Shown here in pieces: positions 1,897 through 18,615 of a stretch of DNA of 64,000 nucleotides. Positions within the stretch are counted from its first letter, which is position 1, and the number at the start of each line of letters is the position of its first letter. The translations under genes were made by a program, and so were the position numbers. This DNA comes from Massilia putida (lineage in GTDB: Bacteria > Pseudomonadota > Gammaproteobacteria > Burkholderiales > Burkholderiaceae_D): assembly GCF_001941825.1 (NCBI RefSeq), contig NZ_CP019038.1:3286001-3350000 (forward strand), in the 5' to 3' direction. The notes under the pieces are model-generated. The model was given only the letters and a program-made list of their open reading frames with translations, was not told the DNA's origin and made no database searches.

Positions 1897-2811
1897 ATGG
1901 ACTTCGAAATACTCATCGACGACTCGTTCCTCAACCTCAACACTAAACCTGGACTCTCGCCTCTGGATCGTAAGCATGTACTCAGCCTTGTAAACGGCTT
2001 CGAGGACGGCAAGTGGCAGTTTTCGGACTTGCACAACTTCGTTTGGGACAATATTGCGGAAACTGCCCTGTCGGAGCGTGAAAGGGCCAGCTTAGTCGGG
2101 AAGGCTCACAGTCAGCTAACTGCCGCAGCGCGGAATCTACGCCTGACCGATAAGGAAGACGAATTCGGAAAAGGAAGCGAACTTGCCGAGATAGTCTTGT
2201 ACGGAATAATGAAAAAGCATTACGATGCCTTGCCTGTAGTGCCAAAGATATTTTATAAGCAAAACGCCCAGGATAATGCTAAAGGCGCAGATAGTGTCCA
2301 CCTTGTCATAGCCAACGGCGATTTTTCGCTATGGCTTGGGGAAGCAAAATTTTATAACAGCATAGACAACTCTCGACTAGCCAGCATTATCCAGTCCGTA
2401 GGGAATGCACTTGATACGAATAAGCTAAAGAAAGAAAATAGCATCGTAACAAACCTTCAGGACATCCAACACCTTATCAGCGACGAAGATCTACGCAATC
2501 GCATTCTTAGTGCTTTAGCAGTACGAAAGTCGATTGACGAGCTGGTAAGTCGAATCCATATTCCCATTCTTCTCATCCACGAGTGTGCGATTACAGCTGA
2601 GGCCACAGCCCTATCAGAAGAATATATAAAACAGGTTCGGCGTTTTCATAGGGACCGCGCACAAGCCTATTTCGAATCGCAAATCGCGAAGCTAAAATCT
2701 TTCCACAAATATCCACAAATAACTTTTCATCTCATACTGTTTCCAGTGCCTGACAAGAAGAAGATCATTGATAAATTCATTGCTAATGTAGAATACTACA
2801 AGGATCAGTAA
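1897..2811 (+). CDS. hamA: HamA, Hachiman anti-phage nuclease subunit (DUF1837)
   Basis: 304 residues. The DUF1837 signature is visible: E95 in a GKGSELAE stretch, D132 in KGADSVH, and the GEAKFY motif with E149 and K151, which together give the spacing of a PD-(D/E)xK nuclease core. In Hachiman systems HamA is the effector nuclease, held in check by the helicase HamB until damaged or invading DNA is sensed. The stop overlaps the hamB start by one base (TAATG), which implies translational coupling. No clear Shine-Dalgarno is seen, but 1897 is the only usable start in the open frame. The gene is markedly AT-richer than the chromosomal genes after 17 kb, consistent with horizontal transfer. Confidence 0.88.
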   Translation: MDFEILIDDSFLNLNTKPGLSPLDRKHVLSLVNGFEDGKWQFSDLHNFVWDNIAETALSERERASLVGKAHSQLTAAARNLRLTDKEDEFGKGSELAEIVLYGIMKKHYDALPVVPKIFYKQNAQDNAKGADSVHLVIANGDFSLWLGEAKFYNSIDNSRLASIIQSVGNALDTNKLKKENSIVTNLQDIQHLISDEDLRNRILSALAVRKSIDELVSRIHIPILLIHECAITAEATALSEEYIKQVRRFHRDRAQAYFESQIAKLKSFHKYPQITFHLILFPVPDKKKIIDKFIANVEYYKDQ

Positions 2812-4913
2812 TGACCATAGATTTGTTTGACTTATGCAATGTCATCAATGATCTTCTCATTGCCGGGCAGGAAACCGAAGCACGCGACGAACTTATCCGA
2901 ACTCTCGACTATTGTAAGCGCCACAGTGTCGAGTTCACGCCGCTACTAAACCACTTGATCCGTCAGACTGGGCTATATCCATATCTTCAGTTGTCTAGCG
3001 CAGACTGGCAGGACCGCTACGTCTACGAAGCATTCAAAGTAGATGTGGGAGAAAAAAAGCCTGTCGCGTTACATAGGGAACAGTCCGCCCTACTGGCATC
3101 ATTATTAGATGGTGAAAGTCTAGCCGTTAGCGCACCAACCAGCTTCGGCAAAAGCTTCGTTATTGATTCCTTCATTGCCGTTAAGCAACCTAAAAATGTA
3201 GTGATTATTGTCCCTACGATTGCTCTAACCGATGAGACAAGAAGGCGTATTCAGCGAAAGTTCGGCCGAGATTACAAGGTAATTACGACTGCAGACGTTG
3301 AGCTAGGTGAGAGGAATATTCTGATATTTCCCCAAGAACGAGCGATCGGATATGCGAGTCGCCTGCCTGAAGTCGATATATTGATCATCGATGAGTTTTA
3401 CAAAGCAAGCAAAAAGTTTGACAAAGAACGATCGCCATCCCTCTTAAGGGCAATACTAAGCTTAAGTGAACGGGCAAAACAGCGTTATTTTCTTGCCCCA
3501 AATATTTCAGGCCTAAATGACAGTCCGTTCACCCGCGGCATGCGGTTTGAGAAATTTGACTTCAATACCGTTTTCCTGGAAAAGAAGGAATATTTCAGAC
3601 AGATTGGCACAGACGAGGTAAAGAAGAGCAAATATCTCTTGAGAATACTTGGAGAGAATGAAAAGAAAACGCTAATCTACGCAGGAAATTATCCAAACAT
3701 TCACAAAGTCAGCAATCTTCTTATAGATAACTTAACGCCAGTACGCAGCAAGCTACTGTCGGCATTCGAATCCTGGCTCTCGAGCAATTACGACAAGAAT
3801 TGGCACCTAACCTCGCTCGTAAAAAGGGCTGTAGGAGTACACAACGGGCAGCTTCACCGATCTCTTAGCCAGATACAAGTACGTCTCTTCGAGGAAGCAG
3901 ACGGGCTGATGAGTATGATATCAACATCATCGATCGTGGAGGGCGTAAACACATGTGCCGAAAATGTTGTCATATGGCGTAACAAGAATGGGAACTCGAA
4001 TTTAAAGGACTTTACATATAAGAACATTATTGGCCGAGGTGGACGAATGTTCAAGCATTTCGTCGGCAAAATCTATATTCTTGAAAGTCCACCAGCCGAC
4101 GAGCAGGCCGAACTCGACTTAAAAGTCCCTGATGAGCTGTTAGGTGATATTGATGAGGAGAAGTATCGCGATGATCTTACTCCTGATCAAATCGGGAAAA
4201 TCATAGAATACCGGAGAGAAATGCAGTCCATCCTCGGAGACAAAGAGTATCAATCCTTGCACGACGATGGAATCTTTCAGTCCAGCGATAGTTTCCTACT
4301 AAAACGAATTGCAATTGATATCAAAAGGAACCCGCAGTGGAATGGCCTTGGATATTTAAACTCGCCTAATCCGGCCGACTGGGATCGCTTGCTGTACAAA
4401 GTAATCGCGCTAGCACCTGGGGGATGGGACATAGAATATAGCAAGTTTGTAGCATTCGTAAAGATTTTATCAAAGAACTGGTCTTTGTCTATTCCGCAGC
4501 TATTATCAATGTTGGACAGCGTGGACGTTGGAATTGACGATTTCTTTAAGCTCGAAAGGAACGTGGTTTTTAAGCTTTCTGCACTGCTCGCTGACGTTAA
4601 TACGATCCAGAGTGCTATTCTAAAAGACAAAAAATACGATATATCTTCGTTTGTAGCAAAAACGTCATTCGCTTTCCTTCCACCGGTTGTATTCCAGCTA
4701 GAAGAATACGGACTCCCGAGGATGTTAAGCAGAAAAATCCACAGGGCCGGCTTAATCGATTTCGAAGCTCAAGAACTTTCGCTTCATACGGCAGTTGCCA
4801 AGTTAAATAAAATCGGGATAGAAAAAATTATGACTACCGTGGAAAATTTAAGCGAGTTCGACCGATACTTATTAGAATATTTTTACGAGGGAATTCAGGT
4901 GGAAGAATTTTAG
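2811..4913 (+). CDS. hamB: HamB, Hachiman superfamily 2 helicase
   Basis: 700 residues, the usual size for HamB. Helicase motifs in order: Walker A APTSFGKS around residues 108-115 (K114), Walker B IIDEFYK with D194 and E195 (DEFY instead of DEAD), a motif III-like APNISG near 228, and an arginine-finger motif VI as GRGGR near 407. The C-terminal third has no recognised domain and probably contacts HamA or DNA. Known role: HamB scans and unwinds DNA and licenses the HamA nuclease during phage infection. It is translationally coupled to hamA by the TAATG overlap, and the low GC content matches hamA. No third gene follows, so the system is the minimal two-gene type. All motifs look intact. Confidence 0.88.
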   Translation: MTIDLFDLCNVINDLLIAGQETEARDELIRTLDYCKRHSVEFTPLLNHLIRQTGLYPYLQLSSADWQDRYVYEAFKVDVGEKKPVALHREQSALLASLLDGESLAVSAPTSFGKSFVIDSFIAVKQPKNVVIIVPTIALTDETRRRIQRKFGRDYKVITTADVELGERNILIFPQERAIGYASRLPEVDILIIDEFYKASKKFDKERSPSLLRAILSLSERAKQRYFLAPNISGLNDSPFTRGMRFEKFDFNTVFLEKKEYFRQIGTDEVKKSKYLLRILGENEKKTLIYAGNYPNIHKVSNLLIDNLTPVRSKLLSAFESWLSSNYDKNWHLTSLVKRAVGVHNGQLHRSLSQIQVRLFEEADGLMSMISTSSIVEGVNTCAENVVIWRNKNGNSNLKDFTYKNIIGRGGRMFKHFVGKIYILESPPADEQAELDLKVPDELLGDIDEEKYRDDLTPDQIGKIIEYRREMQSILGDKEYQSLHDDGIFQSSDSFLLKRIAIDIKRNPQWNGLGYLNSPNPADWDRLLYKVIALAPGGWDIEYSKFVAFVKILSKNWSLSIPQLLSMLDSVDVGIDDFFKLERNVVFKLSALLADVNTIQSAILKDKKYDISSFVAKTSFAFLPPVVFQLEEYGLPRMLSRKIHRAGLIDFEAQELSLHTAVAKLNKIGIEKIMTTVENLSEFDRYLLEYFYEGIQVEEF

Positions 4914-12876: not shown

Positions 12877-13192
12877 GTTGCTCCTCCAGTGTCACAGAGC
12901 GCTATTTATAATCGTACGGCGGAGTGACAGTGGAGCGCAAACTTTTATTGGCGTCGTCAAAAAAGATCAACAAAAACAGATACTTAAAGATTTTTCGCTT
13001 AAAAGAGACCGGAAACATGTTGTCACAGTCCAAAAGCTTTTCTTAGTTGAGCTCCGAATGGCTGCCGAATTTACTGTTTTGACTAGAAATACTTGGTACC
13101 GGCAGATGCAGGCTTTAGGCGAAGTTCAGTAGCAAGCATAGCCGCGCTTGGGCGCTTGCGGCCCGAATGCAGTCTGCAAATGAGATTCGTGG
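12877..13192. other. Gap between broken gene and Mrr remnant
   Basis: About 315 bp. It contains the ribosome-binding site and presumably the promoter of the interrupted gene, read leftward. On the plus strand an open stretch ending at 13132 (…MQALGEVQ) lacks a plausible start and is not called. Confidence 0.4.
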
Positions 13193-13618
13193 TCATTGCC
13201 ATTCAGAGTACAGCATGCATTCCACTTCCAGCATCGTAACCGGGTACGCGTTAAGGAGCCGTGCAAGGTCCTCCTGGTCGAGCAGCTGCATCGGGTTGAA
13301 TGATGCATTTTCCCGTGCGTGACCGTTGAAGAACTGGTTCGTGATGCATACTTGCTCAAAGCGCACACCCGAATGGCGGCGCCGATAGTAAGCTTCGCCG
13401 GCGACGACCTCTTTGACGGCATCTCAGCCGAGCATGGCCCCATCCTTGCCCGGGCTCTTAGCCTGCACCAGCTGTCCGCGGTCTCCCGAGATGGCAACGA
13501 CATCCACTCCATAGCCCTTGGTACTCGGCGTGCGATAGGTTTCGTGACCCTGCTTTACCCACAGGACGCCGGTCAGGCATTCGAAGTGCTGTCCGCCCAT
13601 GCGCAGCGCCATGTCCAA
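13193..13618 (-). pseudogene. Mrr-like restriction endonuclease remnant with in-frame TGA
   Basis: One frame on the minus strand reads like the catalytic domain of an Mrr-type restriction endonuclease: FECLTGVLWVKQGHETYRTP, then GYGVDVVAI and QLVQAKS, giving the G-x-G-x-D...Q-x-K pattern of this PD-(D/E)xK subgroup. A TGA at 13424-13426 interrupts it exactly where family members normally carry the W of a WDAVKEV stretch. The same frame continues for 76 codons (AVKEVVAGEAYY…) to a TGA at 13193. The only start is a TTG at 13618, and the frame is closed upstream by a TAA inside a palindrome, so the N-terminal part is missing as well. Non-functional as read. Confidence 0.75.
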
Positions 13619-13627
13619 CGTGAACCA

Positions 13628-13652
13628 TTGTTAATCTCGAAGAGATTAACAA
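13628..13652. repeat. Perfect 25-bp palindrome at the truncation point of the Mrr remnant
   Basis: Arms TTGTTAATCTC (13628-13638) and GAGATTAACAA (13642-13652) with a 3-base centre GAA. It lies exactly where homology to the Mrr-like gene stops. It could be an operator, a recombination scar or the end of a lost element; the sequence alone does not decide. Confidence 0.7.
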
Positions 13653-13906
13653 TACGAGACGCCAGTCTATCCTGCCTCCAAAAACCAACCCCAAAGACAC
13701 TGCTTTCAATACTCTCGAGCCGAGTCTAATGACGCTTGCATAGGTATCAGCGCAATATCCCGGACGCCACTCGACGGCACACTGCTACCTGCGTCGCAGC
13801 CGCGCTAAGGATCCTATGCAGTCACTGCACCGACGACGCGACGACACCCGCGCTATCCGGCTATGCGGCAGCGATGCTTCTTTTCAGGCTCATTTTGGAG
13901 GCGTAC

Positions 13907-14161
13907 ATGTATCAGCAAACGGTCGATGTGGCGGTTGAACGCCGTGCGTCGAGCAATCGTGCCGACGTTCGGTTCCTCAGACTTAAGGAAGTGCTCGCCA
14001 TCTGCGGCAAGTCGCGAAGTAGCGTCTACGACGCAATCAAAAAAGGTGACTTCCCAAAACCGGTAAAGCTCAGCGGCAGGTCGTCCGCGTGGATCAAGAG
14101 CGAAGTGGAACAGTGGGCTGTCGAATGCATTCGCGCCAGCCGACGGGATTCAAGGCCTTGA
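13907..14161 (+). CDS. AlpA-family DNA-binding regulator
   Basis: 84 residues. The start at 13907 is fixed by a GGAGG five bases upstream, although the frame is open from 13736. The core RFLRLKEVLAICGKSRSSVYDAIKKGDFPKPVKLSGRSSAWIKSEVEQW is the AlpA/excisionase-like winged helix found in prophages and integrative islands, where it activates excision or island gene expression. No integrase is present in the window, so the element it belongs to extends beyond the left edge or has been lost. It is followed by a small leftward ORF and the methyltransferase-HNH operon. Confidence 0.88.
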   Translation: MYQQTVDVAVERRASSNRADVRFLRLKEVLAICGKSRSSVYDAIKKGDFPKPVKLSGRSSAWIKSEVEQWAVECIRASRRDSRP

Positions 14162-14235
14162 GCTACGGGCCGTCGACTATGAACGAACGCCGCGTCCGAA
14201 TGGATGCGGCGCGATTCGTCGCCTTCATGCTGCCC

Positions 14236-14415
14236 CTACGGGTTCTGGTACGGACGCATGACGTTCGCCACCCTGCAGATTTCGGCGTCGTGCCATAGTT
14301 CATCTATCGTGGCGTGCTTGCCGTTCCAAGCCTCGCGCAGCGCTTCGAGAGCGACATCGAGACCGATCTTATTGCTCAAGAATTCTGTCGTCTGGTGGTT
14401 TATCTCGCCAGCCAT
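14236..14415 (-). CDS. Small hypothetical protein, divergent from the methyltransferase-HNH operon
   Basis: 59-residue frame from an ATG at 14415 to a TAG at 14236 on the minus strand. The composition is protein-like (ATIDELWHDAEICRVANVMRPY near the C-terminus, helix-rich), unlike the shadow frames around it. No family is assigned. It is divergently oriented from the methyltransferase-HNH gene with two palindromes (14491-14532) in the shared intergenic region, so both could be under the same operator. Coding status rests on composition and layout only. Confidence 0.5.
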   Translation of the reverse strand: MAGEINHQTTEFLSNKIGLDVALEALREAWNGKHATIDELWHDAEICRVANVMRPYQNP

Positions 14416-14490
14416 ACAAAATCTAGGCAGCTATCCATATTTGCCGAGCTTTTGTGCAGAATATCGGCCGGAGTAAGGCAAACAGGTCAA

Positions 14491-14532
14491 GTGTTCGTCA
14501 TGACGAACACTCGGATTTCGTCATGACGAAAT
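14491..14532. promoter_or_regulatory. Two palindromic operators upstream of the methyltransferase-HNH operon
   Basis: GTGTTCGTCATGACGAACAC (14491-14510, a perfect 20-bp palindrome) and ATTTCGTCATGACGAAAT (14515-14532, a perfect 18-bp palindrome). Their centres are 23 bp apart, roughly two helical turns, so a dimeric repressor could bind both on one face. The same core recurs at 16987 and 17089 upstream of the VapB-like gene. The binding protein is not known; the VapB-like protein is a candidate. Confidence 0.7.
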
Positions 14533-14637
14533 TCCTCCTTGCGCCCTTGTTGGAAGTTGCACCAATGAAACAAAATGTGGATATTGAACAGTTCCACATT
14601 ACAATGGCAGTTAGCTCAACAGCAAGGGCAACAGCCG

Positions 14638-16392
14638 ATGTCCGCAATCCTCTATTACGAACAGCACGCAACCCGGCTGGTGACGCAGTACGAGTCGCTG
14701 TCATTTGAAGACGTCCACGCGGACCTGATGGCTGTACTGCCGGCGCCGGGAAGTACGGTTCTCGATATCGGCGCAGGTTCCGGCCGCGACGCGGCGTGGC
14801 TCGCGGCAAAGGGATACGACGTCGTGGCCGTCGAGCCGTCCGAGGCCATGCTCGCCCACGCGCGCGCTAAACACGCATCGAACCGGATCCAATGGCTTTC
14901 CGACAGCCTGCCTGACCTCGCAAGGGTCCGCCGCCTCGGCCTGAGCTTCGACCTCATTCTGCTGTCCGCCGTCTGGATGCAAATCCCTCCAGCGGCGCGC
15001 CAGCGCGCGTTGCGCAAGCTGGTGACGCTGCTGGCGCCGAAAGGACGTATCGCGATCAGCCTCCGGCTCGGCGCGCCCGAGACCGAACGCGCGATGTACG
15101 AGGTCTCGCTGCCGGAACTGGCCGGCCTTGCCCAGCAATTCGGGCTGCGCATCGTCCACACCAGCGACAGTCAGGACAAGCTGGGACGGAGCGAGGTGTC
15201 GTGGACGAACGTCTTGCTGGGACTTCCCGACGACGGCCTCGGCGCCCTGCCCCTGCTACGGCACCTGATCCTCGTAGACGAAAAGTCGTCGACGTACAAG
15301 ATCGCGCTGCTGCGCGTCTTGGCGCGCATTGCCGATACCGCCGCGGGACTAGCCAGGTACGATGCAGAATCCGTAGTTGTGCCGCTGGGTCTCGTATCGC
15401 TGTTCTGGCTCCGCATGTACAAGCCCCTGATCGAACATCTCCTTCCTCAGATGCCGCAGAGGACCGGCCCCGGCTTCGTCACCAACAACTTCACCTCGCT
15501 GCGGTCCGTCACCGCGGTCGAATTGCGCATCGGCTCCATGTTCAGCGGCCAGACGGCAAAACACCTGCACCAGAGTCTTTCCGAGATCTCGCAGGTGATC
15601 CGCAACATGCCCGCGAACTACCTGCGTTGGCCCGCGAGCGACAATCCGATTTTCGAAGTCACGCGGCGCCGCATGGTGCCGACGCCGTCCCCGTTGCAGA
15701 TCGACGAAGCCTTCCTGTGGAGTCTCGGCGACTTCCGCATCCCACTTGAGATCTGGCAGGCGCTCACGCATTACAACGTGTGGATCGAGCCCGTCCTCGT
15801 GTCCGAATGGGTCCGACTGATCGAATCCTACTGCTCGGATGGACGACCCGACGTCCGCACGCTTGCACACTCGCTGCTCGCATGGGTCGATCCTGCGCGC
15901 GACACCAGCTTCGCCCGCGCGGCGGTCGATCGCATGCGTGCAGCCGGCAAGCCGGTGTATTGCGTCTGGTCCGGTGCGCGGCTGCGCGACGAGTACGACG
16001 TCGACCACTGCTTTCCATTCGCCGCATGGCCCTGCGGCGACGCATGGAACCTAATGCCGGCGTCACGCCAGATCAACATCCAGAAGTCGAACCGGCTCGT
16101 CACCCAGGTCGCGCTGGAGAGCGCGAGCGATACCATCAGCAGTTGGTGGCATGACGCGTTCCTGAGTCAGGGCGACGGCCTACGGCGCCAGTTCTTCCTC
16201 GAAGCCTCGCAGACGCTGCCGATTCTCGTGGCCACGCCGGAGCCGGCCGACGTCATCGACGCGATGAAAGTCCATCGCATCAGGTTGAGCAAGGATCAGG
16301 GACTGCGTCCTTGGGAGCCGTCGACTGCCACTGGTCGCAACCGGACCGCGGCGCCAAGCCTTCCGTCAATATCGCAACCGAATATCGAGTGA
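14638..16392 (+). CDS. SAM-dependent methyltransferase fused to HNH endonuclease
   Basis: 584 residues from the ATG at 14638; the frame also holds an ATG 21 codons earlier (14575), which would add a glutamine-rich, unlikely leader. Residues about 20-170 form a class I methyltransferase: motif I VLDIGAGSG (41-49), then VVAVEPSE, then FDLILLSAVWMQIPP. The last lacks the (D/N)PP(Y/F) signature of amino-DNA methylases, so DNA as substrate is not assured. After about 240 residues without a known motif comes an HNH nuclease: CVWSG (C442), DVDHC (D456, H457), WNLMPASRQINIQKS (N471). The next gene follows after 10 bp. Candidate restriction-like effector in a defence island. Confidence 0.82.
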   Translation: MSAILYYEQHATRLVTQYESLSFEDVHADLMAVLPAPGSTVLDIGAGSGRDAAWLAAKGYDVVAVEPSEAMLAHARAKHASNRIQWLSDSLPDLARVRRLGLSFDLILLSAVWMQIPPAARQRALRKLVTLLAPKGRIAISLRLGAPETERAMYEVSLPELAGLAQQFGLRIVHTSDSQDKLGRSEVSWTNVLLGLPDDGLGALPLLRHLILVDEKSSTYKIALLRVLARIADTAAGLARYDAESVVVPLGLVSLFWLRMYKPLIEHLLPQMPQRTGPGFVTNNFTSLRSVTAVELRIGSMFSGQTAKHLHQSLSEISQVIRNMPANYLRWPASDNPIFEVTRRRMVPTPSPLQIDEAFLWSLGDFRIPLEIWQALTHYNVWIEPVLVSEWVRLIESYCSDGRPDVRTLAHSLLAWVDPARDTSFARAAVDRMRAAGKPVYCVWSGARLRDEYDVDHCFPFAAWPCGDAWNLMPASRQINIQKSNRLVTQVALESASDTISSWWHDAFLSQGDGLRRQFFLEASQTLPILVATPEPADVIDAMKVHRIRLSKDQGLRPWEPSTATGRNRTAAPSLPSISQPNIE

Positions 16393-16402
16393 GTTCGACG
16401 AC

Positions 16403-16951
16403 ATGAAAATTATCCTGATCCTCCTCGTGCTGGCCGTGCTGGCGGTGGCCGCCCTTGCTGCAAAGTCGAAGAGTACGAAAAAAACTAGCCGGACCGGTAC
16501 CTACCGCCAGCGCAAAATCATGAGCGATAACGAGGAAGAGTTTTTCGGCCGACTCGTCGTGGCACTTCCCGACCACTACATTTTTCCGCAGGTAGCGATG
16601 TCCGCCCTGCTGGATCCGGCTAGCAGCGACAAGAAAGAAGCCCATAGCGACAGGATGAGCATCGCCCAGCAGCGCGTCGATTACGTCGTCTGCACCAGAC
16701 GATGCGAGGTCGTCGCGGTCGTCGAACTGGACGACAAGACGCACACCCGCGCGAAGGACGAACTGCGGGATGCACGGCTCGAACAGGCGGGCATCCGGAC
16801 CGTCCGCTTCCAGGCCCGTCACAAGCCGAAGGTCGAGGCCATCCGGAGCATGATTCTCGGCCCCACGATGACCGAGGCCGGCAACGCAGCAGCCGAACCC
16901 ACCGGTCAGGGTGCCGCGCCTGCCGGCGCCACACCATTTACACAGCAATAG
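16403..16951 (+). CDS. Membrane-anchored DUF2726 protein
   Basis: 182 residues. Residues 3-20 form a hydrophobic N-terminal anchor, followed by a basic linker. The DUF2726 core spans about 40-155: EEEFFGRLVVALPDHYIFPQVAMSALL, then RVDYVVCTRRCEVVAVVELDDKTH, then RDARLEQAGIRTVRFQ. This family is regarded as restriction-endonuclease-like; here the visible acidic residues are D in RVDYV and E-D-D in VELDDKTH. It begins 10 bp after the methyltransferase-HNH stop, so the two form an operon and probably act together, possibly placing nuclease activity at the inner membrane. Its exact role is unknown. Confidence 0.8.
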   Translation: MKIILILLVLAVLAVAALAAKSKSTKKTSRTGTYRQRKIMSDNEEEFFGRLVVALPDHYIFPQVAMSALLDPASSDKKEAHSDRMSIAQQRVDYVVCTRRCEVVAVVELDDKTHTRAKDELRDARLEQAGIRTVRFQARHKPKVEAIRSMILGPTMTEAGNAAAEPTGQGAAPAGATPFTQQ

Positions 16952-16986
16952 TCGCCACGTCTGCATCGGCACGACAACGCGCCGGA

Positions 16987-17006
16987 TTTTTCGTCATGAC
17001 GAAAAA
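16987..17006. promoter_or_regulatory. Palindromic operator-like site, third copy
   Basis: TTTTTCGTCATGACGAAAAA is a perfect 20-bp palindrome sharing the TTCGTCATGACGAA core with the two sites at 14491-14532. It lies 35 bp after the DUF2726 stop and about 185 bp before the VapB-like gene. Its T/A-rich arms could also act as a weak terminator for the upstream operon. Confidence 0.65.
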
Positions 17007-17088
17007 ATTTGTGGCCCGCAATGCCGGCATCCCGTCACGGGAACGACAGTGAACCTGAGCCAACAGCGCGGTCATGGCGAACAGCCAG

Positions 17089-17106
17089 ATTTCGTCGCGA
17101 CGAAAT
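17089..17106. promoter_or_regulatory. Palindromic operator-like site, fourth copy
   Basis: ATTTCGTCGCGACGAAAT is a perfect 18-bp palindrome. It differs from the other three only in its central bases (GC in place of AT). It sits 85 bp upstream of the VapB-like gene, a normal distance for a promoter operator, which suggests autoregulation. Confidence 0.65.
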
Positions 17107-17191
17107 TTGTACCCATCGCTTTGGGCCGGCATCGCATATAAAGACGCTCTCCTGATGCAAAATCCTTCATATTTGACGTAGGGAGCAACCA

Positions 17192-17395
17192 ATGCGAATC
17201 ACCGTGACGATTGACGACGCGTTGTACGAAAAGGCGCTGGAGATGGCGGACCCAGACATAGACAAGGCCGACCTGTTTCGTGAGGCAATCAAGACCTTCG
17301 TGCGTGTCCAGGCCGCGCGGCGTCTTGCCAGCCTTGGTGGCGCGGCGCCTGACATAGCAAACATTCCGCGCCGGTCCGGTGAGCCAGCGGAATGA
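17192..17395 (+). CDS. Orphan VapB-family antitoxin-like protein
   Basis: 67 residues beginning [21 protein letters not shown], the ribbon-helix-helix DNA-binding start of VapB-type antitoxins (DUF2191), followed by [26 protein letters not shown] and a disordered tail. VapB proteins bind palindromic operators and neutralise a VapC PIN-domain RNase. An ATGA overlap at the stop looks like the usual coupling to a vapC, but the frame that follows stops after about 24 codons and has no PIN motif, so the toxin is missing. It may now work as a stand-alone repressor acting on the palindromes in this region. Confidence 0.8.
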
Positions 17396-17641
17396 AAGCT
17401 GTAATAGCGGGCGCAACGTCAGCGCTTGGAAACGGCAGTGAACTAAGCTACGCGACAAGGGTCTAAGTGGTCAGCGGGATTTTGCATTCAAAAACCGCAT
17501 CCGTACCCTAAACGGTTGAGCATCCACAGGTGTATCCATGCCACAGATGAGCCCGCCAAGAAAACCCAGCAGCCACGCGGCGTCCAGCGGACTCATCGAT
17601 TCCGGCCGGAGCACCATTCCTGAGTAGTCATCTGACGCCGG

Positions 17642-18382
17642 TTAACGCGCCGGCAATCCCCAGTCGTCGTACTTGTGCACGATTGCACGCGCGGTGCCGT
17701 CGCGCTCCATGTTCTCCAGCGCGCCGTTCATGCGCGCCACGAGGGCATCGGGCACGGCCCGGTTGCAGGCCAGGTAGACGCGGATGCGATTGAATACCAG
17801 CACCGGCACCACCTTTCCCGTATAGCCCAGCCGGTCGAGCGTGATGCTGCCGCGCCGGATGCTGGCGGCCCACAGGTCGATCCGGTCCATCATCAGCTTG
17901 CGGGGATTGATCATGTCGTTCGGCGCGGGGTCGACGTTGAAGCCGCGCGCGCGCAGGAACTGGTCGCGCGCGTCGCCGTTGTAGGTGCCGACGCGATAGG
18001 CGCGCGCATCGTCCAGGCTGCGCAGGTCGAAGTGCCGGTCGGCGCGTCCCATCAACACCCATTCGGCCTCGCCGATCGGGCCGATCCATTTGAAATTCGG
18101 CTCGCGCTCGGGCGTGCGGGTGGTCGAAAACACGCAAGCGTCGCCACGTTCCAGCGCGGCCGTGTAGGCGCGCTTCCACGGCAGCAGGTCGATCGAATAG
18201 GCGATACCGGCCCGGGACATGATCTCGCGCACCATGTCGGTACCGATTCCCATCACGCGGTCGCCTTCGCGCATGCTGTACGGTGCCGAGGTCTCGGTGG
18301 TCAGGTACAGCCGCGGCGCCGGCTCCGCCCGCGCGAGTGTGCAAGCCACCGCCAGCAGTGCGGCCAGAACTGTCGTTTTCAT
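17642..18382 (-). CDS. Periplasmic solute-binding protein, amino-acid type (SBP_bac_3-like)
   Basis: 246 residues from the ATG at 18382. A signal peptide (KTTVLAALLAVACTLARA) is followed by the family-3 solute-binding fold: LYLTTETSAPYSMREGDRVMGIGTDMVREIM, then a SIDLLPWKRAY segment and AARAIVHKYDDWG near the end. Such proteins bind amino acids or similar small molecules in the periplasm. No ABC permease or ATPase is adjacent; instead a large MHYT sensor kinase is divergently transcribed, so it may act as a sensory input rather than in transport. This gene marks the return to typical chromosomal composition. Confidence 0.78.
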   Translation of the reverse strand: MKTTVLAALLAVACTLARAEPAPRLYLTTETSAPYSMREGDRVMGIGTDMVREIMSRAGIAYSIDLLPWKRAYTAALERGDACVFSTTRTPEREPNFKWIGPIGEAEWVLMGRADRHFDLRSLDDARAYRVGTYNGDARDQFLRARGFNVDPAPNDMINPRKLMMDRIDLWAASIRRGSITLDRLGYTGKVVPVLVFNRIRVYLACNRAVPDALVARMNGALENMERDGTARAIVHKYDDWGLPAR

Positions 18383-18615
18383 ACGTGTCGCACCCAATGC
18401 GGGCGTCCAAGGCGGACGACCCCGTCTTAACTAGCATAGCAGCAACATCACGGACGCGGCAACGCGTAACAACTCGGCAACATTGTCCGTCTTCCGGTGG
18501 CATCCATACGACAACTTTCATGTTCGTTCGGCATTTGATAATAGTCGGAAAGACTTTCACTTCGGAAAATGCCATACTGACGAGCAACAAGTAAATCTCT
18601 CAAAAAATCACAGCC

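Follow-up and report, generated by a model that had tools for sequence, protein, structure and literature searches.

Does the gene at positions 14638 to 16392 of a 64,000-nucleotide stretch of Massilia putida DNA (contig NZ_CP019038.1, positions 3,286,001 to 3,350,000; this whole stretch is termed the window), which encodes an S-adenosylmethionine (SAM) methyltransferase joined to an HNH nuclease, belong to a defence module, and if so, what are the other components of that module? An earlier note on this DNA had placed the fusion in a single undescribed module with a DUF2726 protein and a VapB-like regulator. The partner relation that recurs among relatives is instead that between the methyltransferase and an effector, which is not visible from the window alone. 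Our favoured reading, held with moderate confidence, is that the fusion represents the single-protein form of a mobile defence family composed of a constant small SAM methyltransferase and an exchangeable effector. The constancy of the methyltransferase, its changing partners, the tight coupling of the genes involved, the conserved catalytic motifs and the defence-type nature of some neighbours are readable in the sequences compared; what we infer is that the family acts against phages, that the effector is restrained rather than activated, and that the HNH domain has DNA as its target.

The searches suggest that the family proposed here is apparently undescribed, and among the open-access papers listed (preprints excluded) none was seen to describe a methyltransferase-HNH fusion system or a methyltransferase-effector pairing. 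If the reading is correct, a gene labelled in databases only as ‘SAM-dependent methyltransferase’ would form the core of widespread unnamed defence modules, methyl transfer would be a further means by which defence effectors are controlled, and the exchange of effectors behind a constant methyltransferase would allow one to ask directly what this methyltransferase senses.

The fusion protein and its relatives

The fusion gene and its parts are as follows:

14638 to 16392, + strand: methyltransferase-middle domain-HNH fusion gene, 584 amino acids
14638 to 15231, + strand: class I SAM methyltransferase domain, residues 1-198, with G45, G47, G49, R50 and D51
14980 to 14982, + strand: codon 115, at the SAVWMH motif position, Q in the window copy and H in 59 of the 61 aligned sequences
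15232 to 15957, + strand: conserved middle domain, residues 199-440, with K216, T219 and K221 invariant
15961 to 16098, + strand: core of the HNH_4 (Cas9-type) nuclease, with C442, D456, H457, N471, N480 and K483

The open frame stops at 16392, and a start at 14638, which yields 584 residues, is favoured over the mechanically called start at 14575 because a TACAAT box (14600-14605) falls within the extension and because many close relatives are 584-587 amino acids in length. The N-terminus is a class I methyltransferase (Pfam PF13649, 3.5e-15) and the C-terminus exhibits a weak match to HNH_4 (2e-4, 21.6 bits with a cut-off of 22), in agreement with the domain order first proposed. The middle region, which returned no match in the Pfam search, carries the motif KSSTYKIALL around K216, T219 and K221 in the window copy.

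Conservation was assessed in an alignment of 61 sequences, i.e., the window protein and 60 relatives that are 41-84% identical to it, drawn from several phyla. The SAM loop residues G45, G47, G49, R50 and D51 are invariant in all 61, as are C442, D456, N471, N480 and K483 of the HNH domain, while H457 is retained in 60; the four nuclease residues that had been named from the window sequence, C442, D456, H457 and N471, are thus present and conserved. PF13395 (HNH_4), which we take to be the Cas9-type HNH model, is matched by 58 of the 61. The proposed family is defined by a methyltransferase with GxGxGRD and SAVWMH and by an effector that is fused or adjacent; the window protein fits in possessing both the SAM motif and the HNH domain, with H115 replaced by Q.

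Motif IV, located after strand 4, reads SAVWMQ in the window copy and SAVWMH in relatives, and not (D/N)PP(Y/F). Neither the amino- nor the C5-DNA methylase motif is present and no DNA-methylase family of Pfam matches the fusion, so that the earlier statement that this is not a plain amino-DNA methylase fusion holds. The SAVWM motif is shown by 152 of 225 stored proteins, being followed by H in 150, by Y in one (P0022) and by Q in that of the window; the other 73 do not carry it, many of these being fragments. The view that no named system has this composition also stands, with no Pfam, NCBIfam or PADLOC match specific to the fusion among the matches listed, and an Rfam scan of positions 13000-18500 gave no match.

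Several known systems share features with the fusion. Type IIG restriction-modification enzymes likewise combine methyltransferase and nuclease in one chain, yet they are defined by a DNA methylase motif, either (D/N)PP(Y/F) or the PC motif of C5 enzymes, and the window protein has no such amino- or C5-type motif. Cas9 shares the HNH_4 domain, and single PADLOC Cas9 models match up to nine of the 61 aligned proteins; however, no RuvC match was seen, the HNH domain is here fused to a methyltransferase, and the window protein itself returned no Cas9 match in the Pfam and PADLOC searches. The Mad2 model of the multi-gene MADS system (PADLOC PDLC04134) matches the methyltransferase part at 6e-18, and does so in all 61 aligned sequences, but the match covers the methyltransferase stretch only (profile positions 276-401 of 492) and is little better than that to PF13649.

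Within the genus, the fusion is present in 20 of 62 genomes (source genome counted), with 21 copies in total and a patchy distribution. A scan of genome contigs yielded at least 597 pattern matches, with at least 426 stretches encoding a relative at E 1e-3, some of which may hold the methyltransferase alone. The best 80 of these loci, mostly full-length, were kept and span, by record title, Alpha-, Beta- and Gammaproteobacteria, Acidobacteria, Cyanobacteria, Nitrospirota, Rhodothermales and others. A phylum sample gave a match in 33 of 398 genomes, approximately half of the matches covering the methyltransferase only. A search for proteins with the C-terminal part but no methyltransferase gave 92 out of 1281 candidates; many of these are on short contigs, and they were taken for fragments without a one-by-one check.

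Unfused methyltransferases and the exchange of effectors

The pattern among relatives can be phrased as one METHYLTRANSFERASE with many effectors; the methyltransferase domain is also found in relatives that lack the HNH domain. Of 77 loci fetched, which were chosen among the hits of a genus, a family and the class and phylum samples, 74 were parsed, comprising 36 fused and 38 unfused methyltransferases. A nuclease or helicase directly adjoins 23 of the 38 unfused methyltransferases (14 HNH_2-type, four HNH_4-type and five helicases, mostly SauUSI-like), and 21 of these 23 partners are co-directional with a spacing of -46 to +37 bp, whereas a co-directional downstream gene within 60 bp was found for only four of the 36 fused genes. 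Pfam identified seven of the 23 partners, and the remaining 16 were assigned from BLASTP matches to these (44-89% identity across most of their length). In these comparisons the HNH_2 partners are 51-80% identical over at least 350 residues, the partner at L266 is 89% identical to that at L284, and the partners at L331 and L271 are 44-48% identical to the PLD-helicase-DUF3427 protein of L273; at L272 the partner is a helicase for which Pfam gave neither PLD nor DUF3427. The association was also seen from the side of the effector: 90 genomes of one genus hold 16 HNH_2 partner genes of full or nearly full length, and 14 of these adjoin a methyltransferase, three further matches in these genomes representing the C-terminal part only.

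An instance of exchange is provided by the loci L266 and L280, which share approximately 100 bases upstream of the methyltransferase (with no match further upstream) and a downstream flank of 80-83% identity. Their methyltransferase genes are 90% identical as DNA across 706 bases, and the proteins agree at 187 of 205 residues, or 91%. Between these shared parts, L266 carries an HNH_4 gene, and L280 an HNH_2 gene and a 273-residue open reading frame. In a tree of 97 methyltransferase domains, several rows of which have long branches, the partner labels are interleaved: the fused label requires 14 changes and the HNH_2 label five, of which well-supported branches force at least eight and at least four, respectively.

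A further partner type is represented by coliphage phi458 (L338, 2336-3519), where the methyltransferase Orf3 overlaps the preceding gene Orf2 by four bases, beside an integrase. The Orf2 protein has strongly hydrophobic stretches and is, judged by its sequence, probably a membrane protein. A search for Orf2 in 396 phylum genomes returned two weak matches, in G296 and G320 (E 7e-7, 31-37% identity over ~70 residues), in both of which the Orf2-like segment is the N-terminal part of one frame with the methyltransferase. Among the viral contigs scanned with the unfused methyltransferase P0225 none was confirmed, in a scan that reaches close relatives only.

According to the favoured reading, the methyltransferase would most likely be the sensing or control part, and methyl transfer, or occupancy by SAM, would keep the effector harmless or set its target. 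This effector would be the Cas9-type HNH domain in the window. Elsewhere its place would be taken by an HNH_2 nuclease whose N-terminus is sulfur-binding-like, by a helicase, in most cases PLD-helicase-DUF3427-like, or by a hydrophobic protein; an invader that disturbs the methyltransferase-controlled state would cause the HNH domain to cut DNA. Restraint before infection is a guessed direction of control, suggested by the nuclease pairs, in which the methyltransferase is the first product to be made. A broader and more tentative possibility is a new defence architecture in which the methyltransferase acts as a universal sensor or control unit coupled to interchangeable killers (nuclease folds, helicase-nucleases and a membrane protein); the methyltransferase might then guard cellular SAM or make a methylated signal, and the window protein would be the self-contained, fused form.

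The same observations bear on two other explanations. If the fusion were an unconventional restriction-modification enzyme, the methyltransferase would place some unfamiliar chemical mark on the host's DNA, and DNA without this mark would be cut by the HNH domain, an explanation that fits the presence of both activities in one protein, the position of the methyltransferase gene ahead of the nuclease in the two-gene form (the methyltransferase gene is often first in restriction-modification operons) and the occurrence among the neighbours of DNA methylases and, by eye, HsdR-like genes. We consider it unlikely, given the lack of the (D/N)PP(Y/F) motif and of a Pfam DNA-methylase match, the best-matching solved chains for the methyltransferase, which are mostly small-molecule or uncharacterised methyltransferases, and the swapping of partners among unrelated nucleases and a hydrophobic protein, for the last of which DNA marking would be pointless. 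In restriction-modification the DNA mark must match the nuclease; a constant methyltransferase with unrelated effectors, including a hydrophobic protein, therefore resembles sensor-effector defence more closely, and for this reason control of the effector by the methyltransferase is favoured. A toxin-antitoxin pair, whose antidote would be the methylation of its own effector and whose fused form would be self-controlled, agrees with the upstream methyltransferase and overlapping genes of the nuclease pairs and accommodates a hydrophobic effector. It is nevertheless also improbable, as recognition of unrelated effectors would be demanded of a single methyltransferase, and methyltransferases that are 91% alike serve different nucleases.

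Neighbourhoods and modification-dependent enzymes

Neighbouring genes were examined at 78 distant loci, which may include duplicate genomes. Among the 25 families listed first for the 145 nearest genes are five DUF3427 PLD-helicases, three WYL regulators, two C5 methylases, two PIN proteins, one AIPR and one Schlafen-type protein; DUF3427 was found in eight of 150 genomes of the phylum. Copies on plasmids also exist. Seven were viewed: McrC, transposases, or a dGTPase together with a nuclease-related protein are found close to some of them, while the others have no defence gene nearby. As a separate observation, HipA-like kinases (identified by eye) recur near fused genes at L313, L314, L317, L318 and L320, all in one family.

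Two of the effector types resemble modification-dependent enzymes. The domain set of the type IV enzyme SauUSI (PLD-helicase-DUF3427) is found beside the unfused methyltransferase of L273 and beside the fused gene of L320, and in part at L297, where the partner matches PLD and helicase without DUF3427. SauUSI is described in PMC3874153 as acting as a single polypeptide. By contrast, the window protein has no PLD nuclease, helicase or DUF3427 match in Pfam. The HNH_2 partner at L267 matches the N-terminus of the phosphorothioate-binding HNH restriction enzymes (NF045808) at 7.6e-17, but scores 61 bits against a curated cut-off of 180, and the window protein has no match to this family among those listed. 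Of note, the PLD-helicase partners of L273 and L297 hold an embedded Peptidase_S24-like (LexA-type) segment.

A type IV-like module, in which the methyltransferase would mark or alter modified invader DNA for cutting by the partner nuclease, agrees with these two effector types, i.e., the PLD-helicases with DUF3427 (SauUSI type, PADLOC mREase_IV) and the HNH_2 proteins with a sulfur-binding-like N-terminus, although we regard it as decidedly unlikely: a hydrophobic partner does not fit, and the methyltransferase is present in two of the 10 genomes over the dndC cut-off versus 38 of the 80 others (p 0.18), or, with weaker dndC matches included, in five of 14 versus 35 of 76. The methyltransferase is thus no commoner in dndC genomes, and dependence on phosphorothioation is without support.

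Several observations weigh against the favoured reading. The methyltransferase of the window copy may be altered, as Q replaces the conserved H115. In phi458, G296 and G320 the effector-like part precedes the methyltransferase, so that the methyltransferase-first order is not universal and the guess of restraint is weakened. Full-length HNH_2 genes without the methyltransferase occur in G836 and, as one copy, in G879. Many of the fused copies in the genus are situated amid housekeeping-looking genes (by eye). The PADLOC comparison, in which the 145 neighbours match 120 models versus 51 for 145 control genes (from 19 arbitrarily placed stretches of relative-carrying genomes), counts models and not proteins and is only indicative; none of the 51 control models occurs in more than one gene, and those listed are mostly UvrD-like helicase models. 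Finally, 15 of the 38 unfused methyltransferases have no directly adjoining nuclease or helicase: L286 and L291 are split fused genes, L263 is fused to a hydrophobic segment and L262 is probably a fused remnant, the remainder showing no clear effector and several occupying ordinary-looking metabolic settings. These 15, together with the common flanks of some fused copies in related genomes, speak for a housekeeping or homing-type protein with no defence role; this explanation is very unlikely in view of the patchy presence, the plasmid copies, the phage-borne methyltransferase, the restriction neighbours and the exchange of effectors.

The DUF2726 gene, the VapB-like gene and the palindromes

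The other elements of the module first proposed are the following:

16403 to 16951, + strand: DUF2726 protein with a hydrophobic N-terminus, an accessory neighbour and not core (5.3e-22)
17192 to 17395, + strand: VapB-like ribbon-helix-helix open reading frame (5.5e-5, right at the cut-off)
14494 to 14507, no strand: palindrome TTCGTCATGACGAA, upstream copy 1, exact
14517 to 14530, no strand: palindrome TTCGTCATGACGAA, upstream copy 2, exact
16990 to 17003, no strand: palindrome TTCGTCATGACGAA, downstream copy, exact
17091 to 17104, no strand: variant palindrome TTCGTCGCGACGAA, two mismatches to TTCGTCATGACGAA

The elements that had been named are present, including the DUF2726 gene beginning 10 bp downstream of the fusion gene and the strongly hydrophobic N-terminus of its product, and the presence of Hachiman upstream is likewise supported (HamA at 1897-2811, 1.9e-54, followed by a DEAD helicase at 2811-4913, read as HamB). 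Their union with the fusion in one module is not borne out. DUF2726, predicted in PMC3710099 to be a DNase of restriction-endonuclease fold, adjoins the fusion in four of the 21 genus copies (the window, L057, L058 and L059) and in one of 80 named loci (L155, which shares its genome with L059). Of the 62 genus genomes, 21 have DUF2726 relatives, by coordinates beside the fusion only in those four. In G027 (L136), moreover, both sides of the locus match L057 at 83-87% identity, and the fusion gene has been deleted nearly completely, leaving DUF2726 and both palindromes in place. At L143 nothing but the start of the fusion region is left, next to AbiE-like genes, and L145 has kept just the end of DUF2726. 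The sparse pairing and the survival of DUF2726 after deletion of the fusion led us to reject it as a core partner; on these comparisons it is an accessory passenger of one Massilia island. Of the defence context that had been claimed, the part that stands is the location of some relatives near restriction and regulatory genes; the DUF2726 pairing is infrequent, which is the outcome that the note itself had set as refuting it. The VapB-like gene was similarly rejected as a regulator, being unlinked to the fusion in relatives: a match near the fusion was found in one of 33 fetched loci (L058), ~1.8 kb beyond DUF2726.

The palindromes might serve as cassette ends or operators: in the window and two relatives they lie on either side of the methyltransferase-DUF2726 pair (degenerate in a third), and they also flank a DUF2726-only derivative. 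Exact TTCGTCATGACGAA occurs in the whole 7.5-Mb genome in the three window copies only; at up to three mismatches, 11 matches were found in the window versus 2.8 expected from shuffles, and TWCGTCATGACGWA gave 44 forward matches in the 62 genomes versus two for the reversed control. Many single sites fall within coding frames, and the same or a variant palindrome is also located inside integrase frames and near parB-like genes (both by eye). At L134, L137, L138 and L139 it lies in or near parB-like genes (by eye) of island-like regions, where it is possibly a partition or regulator site. At L057, L058, L136 and L143 TTCGTCATGACGAA flanks the pair or its derivatives, and in some relatives it is situated ~90-105 bp upstream of an AbiEi-like gene. 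Window positions 14191-14450 correspond to the two ends of L057's AbiEi-like gene region, ~420 bases being absent, and so the AbiE module seems to have been deleted in the window.

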